A stretch of 39,671 bases of DNA. Origin: an uncultured Bacteroidales bacterium. Lineage in GTDB: Bacteria; Bacteroidota; Bacteroidia; Bacteroidales; FEN-979. Below the pieces are notes generated by a model, which was not told the DNA's origin, searched no databases, and worked only from the letters and a program-made list of their open reading frames with translations. The stretch lies in the NCBI GenBank assembly GCA_903915465.1, contig CAIWTA010000233.1, positions 1 through 39,671 on the forward strand, read 5' to 3'. Positions 7,457 to 39,152 of the stretch are shown here, piece after piece; position 1 is the first letter of the stretch, and each line of letters opens with the position of its first letter. The position numbers were made by a program, and so were the translations under genes.

Positions 7457-10297
7457 TTATTTTCCAAGTAAAACAAATCCTGCCCATAAATACGGAAGGG
7501 AAGTCTCTGACCGGGCAATCATTTTTAATTTTGTTGCCCGCAATGCAGCTGAATATGATTTCCCGCTTAGAAATCCCCGGTAAAAATCGATCATAAAATC
7601 TTTTGTTTGACGGTCGGGAATGTTCCACAAAGTATAGAGGATGTTAGCAACACCTGCAAGACAAAAGCTTCGAGGTAAGGCTAACATACCTTCGGTTTTT
7701 GTCAATTTCCCTTTACCAGTGGCACAAGCACTCAGAACAAGCAAGTCTGCATAAATGTCAATATTTTCGATCTCATCTCTCCACAAAACACTTTTTCCCT
7801 GATCTTCCTGTGTCTTTGACGAAACTTCCGGAGCAAATGCTAATCCCAATTGATCCGGATGACTTTCATCAATAACACTGTGAGTTGCTATATGAAGATG
7901 GCTAAATTTGCCGGAAAACTGCAAAAAATGAGATTTTGTCGCAGCAGAATCAGTCATGATCTCTGCCTTATAGGAATTATTTCTAAACAAGGAGACAATT
8001 GTTGAAACTTCGGTAAGAGATGATGCAAGAGGATCAAATGAAGGTACCTGATTATTTTGATTGTTAAAGACGGGAGCAAAACCAAGAAAACTATAAGGTT
8101 TTGAAAGGTTTCTTCGTTTTGCTTCCAGATAGGCAACCGACGAGAAATAATAACCGATTTCAAAGTCTTTCATCAGGTAATGAAAATCCGGATAACCAAT
8201 ATTATTTTTCGTCTCACTTTTCTGTGTAATCATTGCCTCAAAGGGCAATGAAGATAATTCTTCATCAGGAATTATGATCAGGTGGTTCTTTCCCTTTAAA
8301 CAGGCATTTATCGGTTCTATAAGGATTTCATAGAGATCATGGCTTAAAACCGGAAATTTTTGAAAATCCGCTCTTTTAATCGACTTTTGAAATTTTGCAA
8401 TCCGGGAAAGGAATGTTTCTTCAAGAGATATCCGTCGTATCTGAAAGGAGTCACGAGTAAAAACAAAAAAGTAAAGAGATGAATCAGCCCAAAAGTATTC
8501 AAGCAACACTTCATTATCCGACAAATTCTCTTTAATACCCGACGAAGTGATCAAATGCCGGGCATTTCTAAGCTCAGAAAAACCCGGAATCTTTCTTTCA
8601 AATCTTTTTATCAAACTGTCATTTTCAAATTTAAAATCGATCACCTTCTCAAGGTCAAGCCAGTACGAATTGCCAGGATATTCATTCACACAGTTTTTTT
8701 GTGTAAATTTTTTTCGTGTGATTAATCCAATTTCCCGGTTAAGAAATTTTTGTTTCTGGATTAGTGAATCCGGCATTCCGTTCATTTTAAACACCTTACG
8801 TTCCTGTAAATTCGCATCTATTATTTGTCCCCTGGCACTTTCTGCAAGTTGAAAGAGTGTTTCTTTAAATTCCAGCGCTCCTGACTTCCATAACCTGTAT
8901 GCAGTTTCAATTGCACCAGCAAATACACTTTTTGCAGAATCATTGAATATCAACCGTGATCCCTCCTGCCCCAGGTCTCGCTGAATCCTGCCGCAAAGTG
9001 CAATAGCCTGATTATATAAATTAAAAGACTGTTTCAAGCAACCTGAATCATCCCCATTTCGGACACCCTTGAAAAGAAGTACCTGTGCGTTTTTTTCCAG
9101 TATCCGGAACAACTCAGCCAAATCAATTTTTTGAAACAGATTCGCCTGTATATTTATATCCGATGGTTGATATCCCAATAGAATTCGATTCAACGCAGCC
9201 TGATAGTAATAAAAAGCACTATCATAATCCTTTCGGATTCTGAATACATCTCCAATCATACAATAAACCCCAGGCACATCACATAAAGAATGATTTTCTT
9301 CCTGGGAAATTTCTGTTACTGCTTTCTGTAAATAGAATAATGAAGAATCATAACGTCCCACGTTTGAATATGAAGTAGCAATACCTTTATATGCCACTAA
9401 TCTCGCATCTTTCCCGCTGGGCTGCCCTTCTCTCAGAAATTGTAATCCTTTCAAATAATTAATCAGCCCAAGGGTAGGCTTGTTCATTTTTTGATAGGCA
9501 CTCCCAACATTAATAAACAATCCTGCCTTTGCGATGGAATCAGTCGAATTAATAGCAATCAGGAGTTTTTCTGCGCTTGACAAACATGATAACCCTTTGG
9601 ATGATTCATTGTTTTCGATATATGCCGTACCAAGACTGGCAAGGGTTTGGTACAACCGGATAGGGTTTTTTCCTTTCAGGGAAAGATTTTTGGTCCAGGC
9701 TTTCTGATAATTTATTATTGCATTTTCATAATCCGCTTTTAAAAAATAGATGTTTCCTATATTCTGATAGGCGTCTACGGCTGTCACGCCTTTTCCTCTT
9801 ACAGCAAGTAAACACTTCTTAAACCAGTCAAGTGCTGACGAATGGTCTCTCTTCAACAACAAACAAGTTCCAATCTGCAAACAATATTGTGCCTTCATTG
9901 TTGAATTTTCAATGCCGAAGGCATCAATTTCCTTCATTCCGTTGAACAATGTTTGAAGAGACGAATCGTAAAGGGAATAAATGCTATAAGAAAGTGCTAA
10001 CCTTAAATGAGCCTGAACTCGCCATGTTTTTGTTGAAATTTTATCCCGATAATTTTCAGTATTCACTTCATGTGGAATGCCCGCGACAGTCGATCGAAGA
10101 AATTGCCTGTAATACAATATGGTACTATCATACTTCTTCCGCTCAAAACAGGTATTTGCCCGAAAATAAAGATTAGCAATCTCGGTACGTTGAGTTTGTC
10201 CTTTCAGCATAGTGGAAACACCGACGAACAAAAACAATAATAAATAAAATCGCAGAAAGTAATTCAACTTATGTTTTTCGTTTCTTAATTGGTTCAT
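7457..10297 (-). CDS. Exported TPR-CHAT caspase-like protein
   Basis: 946 aa. An N-terminal hydrophobic segment (YFLRFYLLLFLFVGVSTML, about residues 13-31, then KGQT) suggests a signal peptide, so the protein is probably periplasmic or membrane-tethered. Residues about 35-430 are TPR helices, for example 'YDSTILYYRQFL', 'AYQNIGNIYFLKADYENAIINYQKAW' shortened here to the pattern Y..IG..Y....Y..A...Y..A. The C-terminal third is a CHAT domain: LIIIPDEELSSLPFEA, then HIATHS with His806, then LLVLSACATG with Cys858, and LPYLWAGFVLLG at the end. His and Cys are the caspase-type dyad, so a cysteine protease is predicted; the substrate is unknown. It starts 14 bases after the anti-sigma-like gene and is the third gene of the sigma operon. 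Confidence 0.88.
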   Translation of the reverse strand: MNQLRNEKHKLNYFLRFYLLLFLFVGVSTMLKGQTQRTEIANLYFRANTCFERKKYDSTILYYRQFLRSTVAGIPHEVNTENYRDKISTKTWRVQAHLRLALSYSIYSLYDSSLQTLFNGMKEIDAFGIENSTMKAQYCLQIGTCLLLKRDHSSALDWFKKCLLAVRGKGVTAVDAYQNIGNIYFLKADYENAIINYQKAWTKNLSLKGKNPIRLYQTLASLGTAYIENNESSKGLSCLSSAEKLLIAINSTDSIAKAGLFINVGSAYQKMNKPTLGLINYLKGLQFLREGQPSGKDARLVAYKGIATSYSNVGRYDSSLFYLQKAVTEISQEENHSLCDVPGVYCMIGDVFRIRKDYDSAFYYYQAALNRILLGYQPSDINIQANLFQKIDLAELFRILEKNAQVLLFKGVRNGDDSGCLKQSFNLYNQAIALCGRIQRDLGQEGSRLIFNDSAKSVFAGAIETAYRLWKSGALEFKETLFQLAESARGQIIDANLQERKVFKMNGMPDSLIQKQKFLNREIGLITRKKFTQKNCVNEYPGNSYWLDLEKVIDFKFENDSLIKRFERKIPGFSELRNARHLITSSGIKENLSDNEVLLEYFWADSSLYFFVFTRDSFQIRRISLEETFLSRIAKFQKSIKRADFQKFPVLSHDLYEILIEPINACLKGKNHLIIIPDEELSSLPFEAMITQKSETKNNIGYPDFHYLMKDFEIGYYFSSVAYLEAKRRNLSKPYSFLGFAPVFNNQNNQVPSFDPLASSLTEVSTIVSLFRNNSYKAEIMTDSAATKSHFLQFSGKFSHLHIATHSVIDESHPDQLGLAFAPEVSSKTQEDQGKSVLWRDEIENIDIYADLLVLSACATGKGKLTKTEGMLALPRSFCLAGVANILYTLWNIPDRQTKDFMIDFYRGFLSGKSYSAALRATKLKMIARSETSLPYLWAGFVLLGK

Positions 10298-10311
10298 TAA
10301 ATCATCTGTTC

Positions 10312-11118
10312 TTACTGAACAGTAAATTTCCCAAAATAGATGACCTCATCTTTACGCATGATTTTGTAATAGAACAACCCAAAATCCAGATATGATGCCA
10401 TTAAGAAAACTGATTGGTTATAATTGGAATCCGATTCATAAACCACTAATCCATTATTATTTTCAACTATCAAACTTGTTTCTTCAGGAGACTCTGTTTT
10501 CCAGGAAAACCAGATAGTGCTTTTTCGTGTGAATACAGAAGATGCTTCAGGTTTCAGCATTCTGATACTTCCCGAACGGTTGGTCGTTCCAATTAGGTTT
10601 TCGAGCACTTTATTCTGTTGATAGCACGCTAACAAGTCATACGTATTTTCTACCACCTGGAATTCATTGTTCAAAGAAACCGGTTTATCTTTTTGGAAGA
10701 TTGTATGAACCTGCTTTGTATTTTGGAAACTCTGTTTCATTTGATCCATTTCCTTTTTCCAGGGAGAGTTTTGCAAGTGAACAAATTCAGATTTATCTGT
10801 TGTTTTTGGAGAGCGTGTCAGATAAAAAATTGTGTACTCCAGTGAAAGGAGGATCAATAGCGATGCAGCCATCAGCAAAATCCTGATGTTCCGATTTCTT
10901 CTACCAGGGGTCTCGGAACAGACTTTCCTAATCTTTTTCCGTAATTCAAGGAGATCATCCTGTTTCAGGATAGAATTAAGTTCGTTATCCAACCTGACTT
11001 CTTCTCTGACACGATGATCCTTATTCATCATTTCCAAAAAAATTATCAGTTCCTCACCCGATAGTTCGTTGGTGTTGAACCGGTCAATCCATTCATGTAT
11101 TTTTTCTCTGTTACTCAT
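10312..11118 (-). CDS. Membrane anti-sigma-like protein of the CHAT operon
   Basis: 268 aa from the ATG at 11118. That ATG overlaps the sigma stop in the junction ATGAGTAA, an 8-nt overlap pointing to translational coupling; the frame is open further upstream only inside the sigma gene. Residues 1-90 are cytoplasmic and helical (NTNELSGEELIIFLEMM...VREEVRLDNELNSIL), like the N-termini of Bacteroidota anti-sigma factors. One TM helix follows at about 94-118 (IRILLMAASLLILLSLEYTIFYL). The periplasmic remainder ends in a beta-rich region (STIWFSWKT...LIVENNNGLVVYES...LFYYKIM), possibly Ig-like. I do not recognise a named family. The role as anti-sigma factor is inferred from position and topology. 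Confidence 0.72.
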   Translation of the reverse strand: MSNREKIHEWIDRFNTNELSGEELIIFLEMMNKDHRVREEVRLDNELNSILKQDDLLELRKKIRKVCSETPGRRNRNIRILLMAASLLILLSLEYTIFYLTRSPKTTDKSEFVHLQNSPWKKEMDQMKQSFQNTKQVHTIFQKDKPVSLNNEFQVVENTYDLLACYQQNKVLENLIGTTNRSGSIRMLKPEASSVFTRKSTIWFSWKTESPEETSLIVENNNGLVVYESDSNYNQSVFLMASYLDFGLFYYKIMRKDEVIYFGKFTVQ

Positions 11119-11692
11119 AATGAAAAAACATTTTATATCTGGGATCCTTAAGAATTCTTTTACGAAGCATGTTTTTGCACAGGTATTTCCTTGTTTTTGC
11201 GTAGGCCTCATTCTTAAATTTCATTTTTACAGCAATTTCCTTGACTGGAATCTGGGCGAGGTACATCTTGAGTATCCTTTGACAATCTTCAGGCAGGTCA
11301 ATAAAATGCTGATGGTACAGTCGTACTTTTTCAAGGTTTATCTCATCGATGGAAAAAGCCAATGGATCATATTCTTCGGAAGGTTCCTGAACAAGTTCAT
11401 CCTGGTACAGCAGCCTCCATTTACGGTCCAATCGCTGTTTCCAGATGTTTTTACAGATGGAATAAAAATAGGTCTTAAGACTGCATTTTAGGGATACTGA
11501 ATCTGAAAGGATCTTTTCATACAGGATTATCAATCCATCCTGAAAAATGTCTTCAGCATCTTCATAATTTCCTGAGTTCCTCTCAACGATTGATTGGGCA
11601 AGAGGGAAAAATTCGCGGTAAAGCTGACGGATACAATCTGTCCGTTTATTCCTTAGCCCTTTCAATAATGCCTCATCCGAAAAATATATCAT
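11111..11692 (-). CDS. ECF-type RNA polymerase sigma factor (CHAT operon)
   Basis: 193 aa. Region 2 includes YEDAEDIFQDGLIILYEKI, and the linker is followed by the -10 melting segment LKTYFYSICKNIWKQRL. Region 4 is LPEDCQRILKMYLAQIPVKEIAVKMKFKNEAY, with a recognisable helix-turn-helix. The gene heads an operon with the membrane anti-sigma-like protein (8-nt overlap) and the TPR-CHAT protein. It lies 82 bases downstream of the prolyl oligopeptidase gene in the same direction. The 82-base gap has a weak TACCTTTT on the minus strand (11728-11735) but no clear housekeeping -33 box, so autoregulation or read-through are both possible. Confidence 0.9.
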   Translation of the reverse strand: MIYFSDEALLKGLRNKRTDCIRQLYREFFPLAQSIVERNSGNYEDAEDIFQDGLIILYEKILSDSVSLKCSLKTYFYSICKNIWKQRLDRKWRLLYQDELVQEPSEEYDPLAFSIDEINLEKVRLYHQHFIDLPEDCQRILKMYLAQIPVKEIAVKMKFKNEAYAKTRKYLCKNMLRKRILKDPRYKMFFHYE

Positions 11693-11774
11693 ATCTCGCG
11701 ATTACTTGCATTAATCGGGGAGAACTGAAAAGGTAGTACGGTTGTTAATAACTTTTTTCGATGCTTAGATCAAA

Positions 11775-15305: not shown

Positions 15306-15859
15306 ATGAAAAACGGATTAGTATTATCAGAAGAAAATGTATTTGGGCGAATATATCTTATCAGGGGGATAAAGGTGATGCTGGATTTTGATCTTGCAAC
15401 ATTAAGGTGATGCTGGATTTTGATCTTGCAACATTATATGGAGTAGAGACAAGGGCTCTTAAACAACAGGTGAAAAGGAACCAGGTCAGGTTCCCTGAAG
15501 ATTTCATGTTCCAATTAACAAAGAGTGAATGGAACGAACTTATCACAAATTGTGATAAGTTATCCCTGAACCTGCGTCATTTGCCAGCTCCCCCGCTTGC
15601 ATTTACAGAACAAGGTGTTGCAATGCTTTCCAGCGTTCTGAAATCACAAAAAGCAATTCTTGTCAACATCGGGATTATGCGAACCTTTGTTCAATTGCGT
15701 AAACTCATATACACAAACAAAGAACTCACCATTCGTGTTGATAAACTTGAAAAGAAATATGATAAAAAGCTCAAACTGGTTTTCACCATCATCAAGGAGA
15801 TGATGGAAACACCGATAGAAAGGAAACCAATTGGATTCAGACGCCAGGAAGAGCGTTGA
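15306..15859 (+). pseudogene. ORF6N-domain (KilA-N-like) gene broken by a 32-bp tandem duplication
   Basis: The natural start is probably the ATG at 15306 (KNGLVLSEENVFGRIYLIRGIKVML). ORF6N domains are DNA-binding modules of phage antirepressor-type proteins. An exact 32-base tandem duplication (15372-15403 and 15404-15435) shifts the frame: the first frame stops at TGA 15408-15410 after 34 codons, and the second continues from 15407 to 15859 (150 aa if GTG 15407 is used). Removing one copy restores about 173 aa reading IRGIKVMLDFDLATLYGVET. The rest is intact (AFTEQGVAMLSSVLKS, then a C-terminal coiled coil LTIRVDKLEKKYDKKL). The 3' part may still be translated, but without the first beta-strand of the domain. 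Confidence 0.8.
15372..15435 (+). repeat. Exact 32-bp tandem duplication inside the ORF6N gene
   Basis: Two identical adjacent 32-base copies, each beginning AAGGTGATGCTGG and ending TTGCAACATT. 32 is not a multiple of three, so the copy number decides the reading frame. The lack of any difference between copies indicates a very recent or actively maintained event. Confidence 0.95.
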
Positions 15860-22887: not shown

Positions 22888-23496
22888 TTAGATTGTTTCC
22901 TGGGAATGTTTCAAAATGTTATGAAGGAATTCACGGGCACGGAACAATTGGGCTTTGACGGTTCCCAACGGGAGGTCAAGTTCAGATGCGATCTCTTCGT
23001 ATGAATACTCTTTAAAATACCGCATTTCGATAAGCAACCGGTAATGAGGTTTTAATTTTTCAACCACTTTATGCATCAATTGGATCTTTTGCTTAGCAAT
23101 AATCGCTTCGTCAGGTCCGGGATCAGTGGAAAGAATGTTTGAAGGGTAGTTTTCCAAATCATTTTCTCCTTGATTAGGAGTTAAAGCAAATTGTATCCTT
23201 TGGCCTTTCCTCATAAAATCAAGGCAATTGTTTGCTGCAATCTTAAAGAGCCATGTGCTGAAAGCAAATTCCGGGGAATATTGATGAAGATTTTTAAATG
23301 CCTTTCCAAATGCCTCAATCGTAAGATCATCTGCATCAACCGGGTTGTTGGTCATCTTCAGCAACATGAAATAAAGTGTGTCCCTGTAATTGTTAAGCAA
23401 CTCCGCATAGGCTTTCTGATCACCGTGATCAACAGCCAGTCTGACCAGTTTATAGTCACGTTGTGCCTTTTCGGTAAGGTGATTGCTTACTTCCAT
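22888..23496 (-). CDS. ECF-type RNA polymerase sigma factor
   Basis: 202 aa. Region 2: LNNYRDTLYFMLLKMTNNPVDADDLTIEAFGKAF, then AFSTWLFKIAANNCLDFMRK. Region 4: LKPHYRLLIEMRYFKEYSYEEIASELDLPLGTVKAQLFRAREFL, a standard HTH. The close fit to the RpoE-like ECF consensus makes it distinct from the more divergent sigma factor of the CHAT operon. Its ATG overlaps the end of the glycosyltransferase gene by 10 bases (ATGGAAGTAA), so translation is probably coupled. No anti-sigma gene is adjacent; urocanase follows. Confidence 0.94.
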   Translation of the reverse strand: MEVSNHLTEKAQRDYKLVRLAVDHGDQKAYAELLNNYRDTLYFMLLKMTNNPVDADDLTIEAFGKAFKNLHQYSPEFAFSTWLFKIAANNCLDFMRKGQRIQFALTPNQGENDLENYPSNILSTDPGPDEAIIAKQKIQLMHKVVEKLKPHYRLLIEMRYFKEYSYEEIASELDLPLGTVKAQLFRAREFLHNILKHSQETI

Positions 23497-38319: not shown

Positions 38320-38453
38320 TTTTCATGTTTCAATAACAACTGGAGTGCCAATCAGCAGGGTTCCCCAGTTCATTGTCAGAACTGCAAATAATTTTCAAAA
38401 TTAATACTTTCCAGGTGTACTACCTTTTCTCCTTTTCCCGATTAATTGAAAAA

Positions 38454-39152
38454 ATGGAAAATTACGAGAACAGACTTACAATCAAGAATTGGGCAGAAGA
38501 AGATCGTCCAAGGGAAAAGTTAATGTTGAAAGGGAAAAATGCTCTTAGCGATTCAGAACTCCTTGCAATATTACTTGGATCCGGCAATCGCTATGATTCT
38601 GCTGTTGAGCTTGGTAAAAAAATTTTAAAGAATGTAAACGACAGCTTGATGGAATTATCAAGGTTATCAGTCACCGAACTGATGGAATTTCCGGGTATTG
38701 GGGAAGCTAAAGCAATAACTGTGATAGCTGCCCTCGAATTGGGAAGGCGAAGAAATGAATCAGAGGTTATTTCACGTGAAAAAATTGCTTGCAGTCGCGA
38801 TGCTTTCGAGATATTTCACAGTAAAATAGGCGATCAGCCTTATGAAGAATTCTGGATTATTCTGCTAAATAAAGCCAACAAAGTAATCCAAAAATGCAGC
38901 ATCAGTGAGGGCGGAGTTTCCGGAACGGTAGTAGATCCAAAAAAGATATTCAAGATTGCATTAGATCATCATGCCTCATCTATCATACTCGGACATAATC
39001 ATCCTTCGGGTAATATTCAGCCCAGTGAGGCCGACAAAAAAATCACCAAAAAGATCCGGGACGCAGGAATGATGCTTGATGTGGCAGTGCTTGATCACCT
39101 GATCATTGGAGATGGAGGTTACTACAGTTTTGCAGATGATGGAGCTTTATAA
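38454..39152 (+). CDS. radC: RadC-family JAB-domain protein
   Basis: 232 aa from ATG 38454; the frame is open upstream to 38373, but without a conserved sequence there. The N-terminal part starts IKNWAEEDRPREKLMLKG and contains the helix-hairpin-helix LMEFPGIGEAKA (about 76-87). The C-terminal JAB/MPN domain has the metal-binding motif GHNHPSGNIQPSEAD, with His181, His183 and Asp194. The name comes from an old link to DNA repair; biochemical role is still unclear, and the zinc motif suggests a hydrolase. Its stop overlaps the convergent deacetylase by a few bases. Confidence 0.93.
   Translation: MENYENRLTIKNWAEEDRPREKLMLKGKNALSDSELLAILLGSGNRYDSAVELGKKILKNVNDSLMELSRLSVTELMEFPGIGEAKAITVIAALELGRRRNESEVISREKIACSRDAFEIFHSKIGDQPYEEFWIILLNKANKVIQKCSISEGGVSGTVVDPKKIFKIALDHHASSIILGHNHPSGNIQPSEADKKITKKIRDAGMMLDVAVLDHLIIGDGGYYSFADDGAL

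Follow-up and report, generated by a model that had tools for sequence, protein, structure and literature searches.

Here, we describe a three-gene operon from an uncultured Bacteroidales bacterium (GenBank assembly GCA_903915465.1), found in the first 39,671 nt of contig CAIWTA010000233.1 (the whole stretch analysed, hereafter the window), which encodes an extracytoplasmic function (ECF) sigma factor, an anti-sigma-like protein with one transmembrane helix and a caspase-like TPR-CHAT protein. On balance, we lean towards a regulated-proteolysis switch, in which the CHAT protein would cut the anti-sigma factor and free an autoregulated sigma factor driving competence genes. We put forward more tentatively the wider proposal that natural transformation in one branch of Bacteroidota is licensed by a caspase-like protease of the periplasm, which would cut a membrane anti-sigma factor after a conserved Arg and thereby free a dedicated, self-amplifying competence sigma factor. 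In such a switch, the anti-sigma factor would hold the ECF sigma factor at the inner membrane via its helical N-terminus; the exported CHAT protease, activated by a signal, would cut it in the periplasm after the conserved Arg181; and a site-2 protease would clear the remaining stub (the genome has one M50 match, as do all control genomes). The freed sigma factor would then drive its own operon, in positive feedback, together with comEC, ssb, recJ, radC, comM, recA and topA, a putative natural-competence regulon in the window's family. The operon, its conservation and co-occurrence, the catalytic and S1 residues, the conserved Arg and the shared promoter motif were computed, and from there we infer that CHAT is exported, that the sigma factor is bound and then released by a cut at the proposed site, and that transcription and DNA uptake follow.

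The trio is conserved and not a product of chance. The anti-sigma protein occurs in 40 of 43 genomes of the window's family, across all 8 genera searched, and at the 40 loci fetched a sigma gene adjoins it in 39 and a CHAT gene lies directly downstream in 33. The other seven comprise three that reach a contig end (L169, L182, L191), two without CHAT at the locus (L165, L183), one with a divergent kind of sigma factor and CHAT on the opposite strand (L185) and one unrelated locus without sigma (L190). Across the order, CHAT was found in 106 of the 198 genomes searched. Counting the listed matches to two anti-sigma profiles, with partial anti-sigma matches dropped, 33 of 90 full-length anti-sigmas ending in a TPR-like domain (TPR type) lie within 6 kb of one of 150 listed CHATs (~0.5 expected under random placement), as do 5 of 22 ending, like that of the window, in an Ig-like domain (Ig type; ~0.08 expected). 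By genome, CHAT is present in 71/73 with either listed anti-sigma type vs 35/125 others (Fisher p 4e-24, a test which, like the binomial ones, ignores phylogeny). Starting instead from CHAT, a sigma factor and an anti-sigma N-terminus of this kind are nearby in 18 of 60 loci (one unselected CHAT for each genome, starting at the top of the listing and covering 60 of the 106 CHAT genomes; G070 is represented by a second CHAT and G181 is left out). The pairing of CHAT with anti-sigma is therefore no peculiarity of this genome, and the three families, whose wider co-occurrence the initial annotation had named as a check, stand together far beyond it.

The two anti-sigma types also differ in their partners. 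At TPR-type loci the anti-sigma gene is mostly convergent with a CHAT gene whose product ends in a transmembrane helix, and at Ig-type loci, the window included, CHAT lacks a C-terminal transmembrane helix. Outside the family, such a helix is present in 22 and absent from 2 TPR-type loci (one of the two being L198), and present in 0 and absent from 10 Ig-type loci, in a count that gave ties to the TPR type and so miscounted the Ig-type L193, L194, L198 and L200 as TPR-type. At three loci (L034, L048, L051), Ig-type proteins carry another N-terminus, with H-x3-C-x2-C seen by eye, beside a divergent sigma-like protein, so the cytoplasmic part is exchangeable, with CHAT and the periplasmic part retained. 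The window's genome itself holds a second CHAT with a C-terminal transmembrane helix (L228, G000:C193), as well as part of a TPR-type anti-sigma at the end of a different contig (L227, G000:C27). A TPR-type locus is also present in the culturable relative Splendidivirga corallicola. A broken locus was seen in another genome of the window's genus (L229 and L230 in G228), where fragments of sigma lie at the ends of two contigs, CHAT is reduced to its C-terminal part and no anti-sigma was found. At several TPR-type loci (L041, L052, L059, L061, L066, L104, L110, L127), an exported protein of ~410 aa with a C-terminus like those of type IX secretion substrates (T9SS-like), which looks dockerin-like by eye, is encoded at the head of the CHAT operon or beside it.

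The layout given in the initial annotation was confirmed, with three minus-strand genes, an 8-nt overlap of the sigma and anti-sigma genes (11111-11118) and a 14-base gap before the TPR-CHAT gene (10298-10311). The first product is an ECF sigma factor by TIGR02937 (sigma70-ECF, 56.6 bits, cut-off 42.9) and Pfam Sigma70_r2 (35.6 bits, cut-off 24), and Pfam made no call for its region 4. The middle protein has nothing above cut-off in Pfam and no match in NCBIfam or PADLOC, and no known anti-sigma profile matched it. Hydropathy places one transmembrane helix at 80-98, and an AlphaFold2 model from 10 sequences (mean predicted local distance difference test score, pLDDT, 72.3; predicted template-modelling score, pTM, 0.42) has helices within residues 3-68, a further helix at 76-101 and strands at 185-267, which resemble FN3/Ig-like domains in Foldseek, confidence being low at 102-118 and 131-157; the helical part, single membrane span and beta-rich part described from the sequence are thus recovered. 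With an ECF sigma gene adjacent in nearly all family loci, a helical N-terminus and one membrane span, the protein has the make-up of a transmembrane anti-sigma factor, and it presumably binds the ECF sigma factor. At L066:3146-4492, one open reading frame (ORF) joins sigma, anti-sigma N-terminus, transmembrane helix and TPR-like domain in a natural fusion.

The third protein carries several TPR models above cut-off and a CHAT domain (PF12770, 188.1 bits, cut-off 24) over residues 652-945 of 946. H806 and C858, the dyad noted initially as intact, are invariant in 34/34 family CHATs, which together with the profile identifies a CHAT protease domain; position 687 is Glu or Asp and D895 always Asp in the same 34 proteins, and proteolytic activity appears likely. 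The predicted structure (pLDDT 83.5, pTM 0.79) has Csx29 (Z 31.2) and separase (5fc2, Z 27.4, 2.9 Å over 302 residues) as its nearest folds, with DdvA (Z 22.5) and Arg-gingipain (Z 19.6) also matching. Moreover, a profile built from 31 CHATs retrieves separase (E 0.001) and aligns its LWDVTD with the CHAT LWxxxD. A published separase model has two acidic residues gripping the P1 Arg, a Glu that follows the first strand and a helix-4 Asp (PMC4626109), and P1 Arg is preferred by many clan CD families (PMC4357240). D895 is a likely counterpart of this Asp and E687 a putative one of the Glu.

A hydrophobic stretch at residues 13-31 makes the CHAT protein look exported, as judged from sequence without a signal-peptide predictor. 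The initial annotation had presented an exported TPR-CHAT protein whose TPR part senses a ligand; export retains its support, and the TPR part lies outside the conserved core of the system, because 24 of the 33 family CHATs that adjoin an anti-sigma gene are only 373-457 aa long (the other 9 measure 824-951 aa) and hence too short for TPR, which leaves a role for it as the essential sensor unsupported. The short forms retain the dyad and, by eye, hydrophobic N-termini.

If CHAT cuts the anti-sigma protein, a candidate site is R181, in the loop immediately before the first strand of the model and one of just two invariant columns among 14 order-wide Ig-type sequences. An Arg stands at this column in 51/54 Ig-type sequences and within two columns in 54/54, the next-best Arg column reaching 11/54. 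In the TPR type it is at the column in 33 of 39 rows and within two columns in 36; two of the three misses are fragments ending short of the site, and one (L038) has no Arg. The linker Arg is mostly followed by Ser. A conserved periplasmic Arg fits an Arg-specific clan CD protease. The Arg is retained where CHAT is absent (L165, L043, L046), which carries no clear weight either way.

The putative output of the sigma factor emerges from a promoter-like motif, ACCTTTT-N-SGATTAA, found before the sigma gene at 36/38 family loci in a loose form and 20/38 in a strict form (reversed controls 0). The window has 2 matches vs 0.02 expected from shuffles, and the window's genome (G000) has 8 strict sites (control 0), which precede the sigma operon, radC, ssb, a RecJ-type DHH protein gene, comEC, a surface-type protein gene and two short ORFs of no known kind; Pfam confirms comEC, ssb, radC and the RecJ-type DHH protein. 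A narrower pattern occurs in 32 of 43 family genomes, with a control of 0 in each listed. In G230, G226 and G100, which have 24, 26 and 14 sites (controls 0), Pfam confirms comEC, radC, ssb, comM, recA, topA and UPF0102 behind the motif, having been applied to all site ORFs except sigma in G000 and G230, 11/22 in G226 and 11/14 in G100. The chance of meeting so many of the listed competence genes is 2e-9 in G000 (4/7), 5e-11 in G230 (6/23), 1e-8 in G226 (5/26) and 7e-6 in G100 (3/13: ssb, recA, comM), figures which assume 10 such genes of 3500, on a list compiled once the hits had been seen. A motif shared by the sigma operon and DNA-uptake genes is therefore present, and the sigma factor may control transformation through it.

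The motif or similar elements also precede homologous sigma genes across the order (29 matches vs 4 in the reversed control). In the distant genome G124, the single site lies before its own homologous sigma gene, and G232, without a close sigma match, anti-sigma or CHAT, has no site. A competence regulon as an order-wide feature was not borne out, as none of the sites read among the 5 in G179 and the 1 in G124 precedes a competence gene. The second ECF sigma factor of the window (22891-23496) was also considered as a user of the motif and not supported, both window copies lying elsewhere. Just 5' of the sigma motif (11735-11760, minus strand), an A-tract and GTTATYAACA, which is DnaA-box-like, are conserved in many family loci (L176: TTATCCACA). 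In L276 (G179:C12), the motif precedes an 84-aa ORF with a double-glycine-like leader, beside a CHAT gene, and several genomes share, downstream of the motif, a small secreted protein of ~150 aa that matches nothing in Pfam (L246, L258, L270, L275, L305).

Beyond the limits of the statistics given above, several observations weigh against the proposed switch. G216, the genome of L165, is 99% complete and without any CHAT, yet retains the sigma factor, an Arg-bearing anti-sigma and 13 copies of the motif, and G150 and G187 have TPR-type anti-sigmas with the Arg and no CHAT. R181, at a loop and close to an ordinary beta strand, may have a structural role, and Csx29 itself has no essential residue at its cut (PMC10028731). 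Less than half of the motif sites belong to competence genes (6/23 in G230, 5/26 in G226), many others being of mobile or toxin-antitoxin type, and in G230, G226 and G100 the motif also stands before many PDDEXK_3, IVP, ORF6N, Y1_Tnp, HicA and HigB genes. The distance from motif to start codon is 221-260 nt at recA and 169 nt at recJ in G000. Finally, the strict motif is absent from 8/8 genomes of genus g152, where competence genes were not examined and the sigma factor's own upstream element is a variant of the motif.

These observations bear on three other explanations. CHAT could be a co-regulated output of the sigma factor, for example one that processes surface or incoming proteins, while another protease cuts the anti-sigma factor; G216, having lost only CHAT from the set, would suit this, as would the motif copies that, in other families, stand before the first gene of the CHAT operon at four loci (L041, L052, L104, L127). 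We nevertheless regard it as unlikely, in that anti-sigmas of these types are near-confined to CHAT genomes even when non-adjacent (the 71/73 above), the periplasmic domain type tracks the CHAT anchor type, and, going by PDB titles, DdvA has anti-sigma and CHAT in a single chain. The same DdvA, for which the literature consulted describes no cleavage, would fit a periplasmic Ig-like or TPR domain that senses by binding CHAT uncut, with CHAT as a non-proteolytic receptor or scaffold; this we consider the least probable of the three, given that His, Cys and both S1 acids are kept in 34/34 family CHATs, short forms included, and that the linker Arg is conserved.

The motif could also be the site of another regulator governing the competence genes as well as the sigma operon. 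Its halves are spaced ~8-11 nt apart, which is shorter than is usual for ECF promoters, but the only site in G124 precedes that genome's own homologous sigma gene and similar elements stand before homologous sigmas across the order, making this improbable, if slightly less so than a scaffold role for CHAT. Proteolytic release of a competence sigma factor is the reading we favour. As a whole, the initial interpretation is partly supported, and the sequences extend it by a linker Arg as candidate cut site and a promoter motif pointing to competence genes, where no targets had been named.

Several known systems resemble the proposed switch. In type III-E CRISPR (CASP), the TPR-CHAT protease Csx29, closest to ours in fold, cuts the inhibitor Csx30 and relieves the ECF-type CASP-sigma (PMC10028731). 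CASP is cytoplasmic and RNA-activated via Cas7-11, whereas here CHAT looks exported, the inhibitor is a membrane protein and the target motif lies at competence genes. The DdvA-DdvS pair of Myxococcus xanthus (PDB 8rot, 8rw5) likewise combines a CHAT domain with a transmembrane anti-sigma that acts on an ECF sigma factor, the PDB title naming DdvA a transmembrane anti-sigma factor and also a CHAT protein; DdvS becomes active upon DdvA inactivation (PMC4374960). DdvA is a one-chain counterpart of what are two proteins in the window's system. We know of no link of DdvS to competence. The DegS-RseP-RseA-RpoE pathway shares a first periplasmic cut followed by a site-2 protease (as cited in PMC10028731), with a PDZ serine protease where the proposed site-1 protease is a clan CD cysteine protease. 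In the ECF54 group, CHAT genes lie near ECF genes and proteolysis has been proposed (PMC8999054). Separase is a related clan CD protease of CHAT type with P1 Arg, but is eukaryotic and cuts cohesin. A periplasmic CHAT/anti-sigma arrangement was not found in our searches of the open-access literature.

If the switch operates as proposed, CHAT-controlled sigma release would move out of the cytoplasm, where it serves CRISPR immunity, and into the cell envelope, and the apparently exported CHAT proteins, widespread in the order, would gain a role and a predicted cut site. The group would also gain a candidate master regulator of DNA uptake; to our knowledge, none has been described for it, no search of the literature having been aimed at this question.

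Table 1. Positions in the window of the operon, its proposed functional residues and the motif copies
Feature	Position	Strand	Details
ECF sigma factor gene	11111..11692	-	193 aa; TIGR02937
Anti-sigma-like gene	10312..11118	-	268 aa, start MSNREK; helical cytoplasmic part, one transmembrane helix, linker, periplasmic Ig-like beta domain
TPR-CHAT gene, product exported as read from sequence	7457..10297	-	946 aa
R181 codon (conserved Arg of the linker that precedes the beta domain; candidate site of the CHAT cut)	10576..10578	-	
Codon of catalytic His806	7880..7882	-	kept in 34/34 in family
Codon of catalytic Cys858	7724..7726	-	kept in 34/34 in family
Codon of Glu687, proposed S1 acid	8237..8239	-	32 E and 2 D of 34; equivalence to separase inferred
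Codon of Asp895, proposed S1 acid (LWxxxD)	7613..7615	-	34/34; aligned with separase LWDVTD
Promoter-like motif 5' of sigma gene	11711..11734	-	
Second window copy of promoter-like motif	38422..38445	+	
radC, first gene past second motif copy	38454..39152	+	

No CRISPR-like array was found in the window and PADLOC gave no Csx29/Csx30 match there, the rest of the genome not having been searched for cas7-11; a defence reading was rejected, PADLOC giving no meaningful match. Elsewhere in the window, a 32-nt tandem duplication (15369-15432) lies within or beside an ORF6N-like gene.

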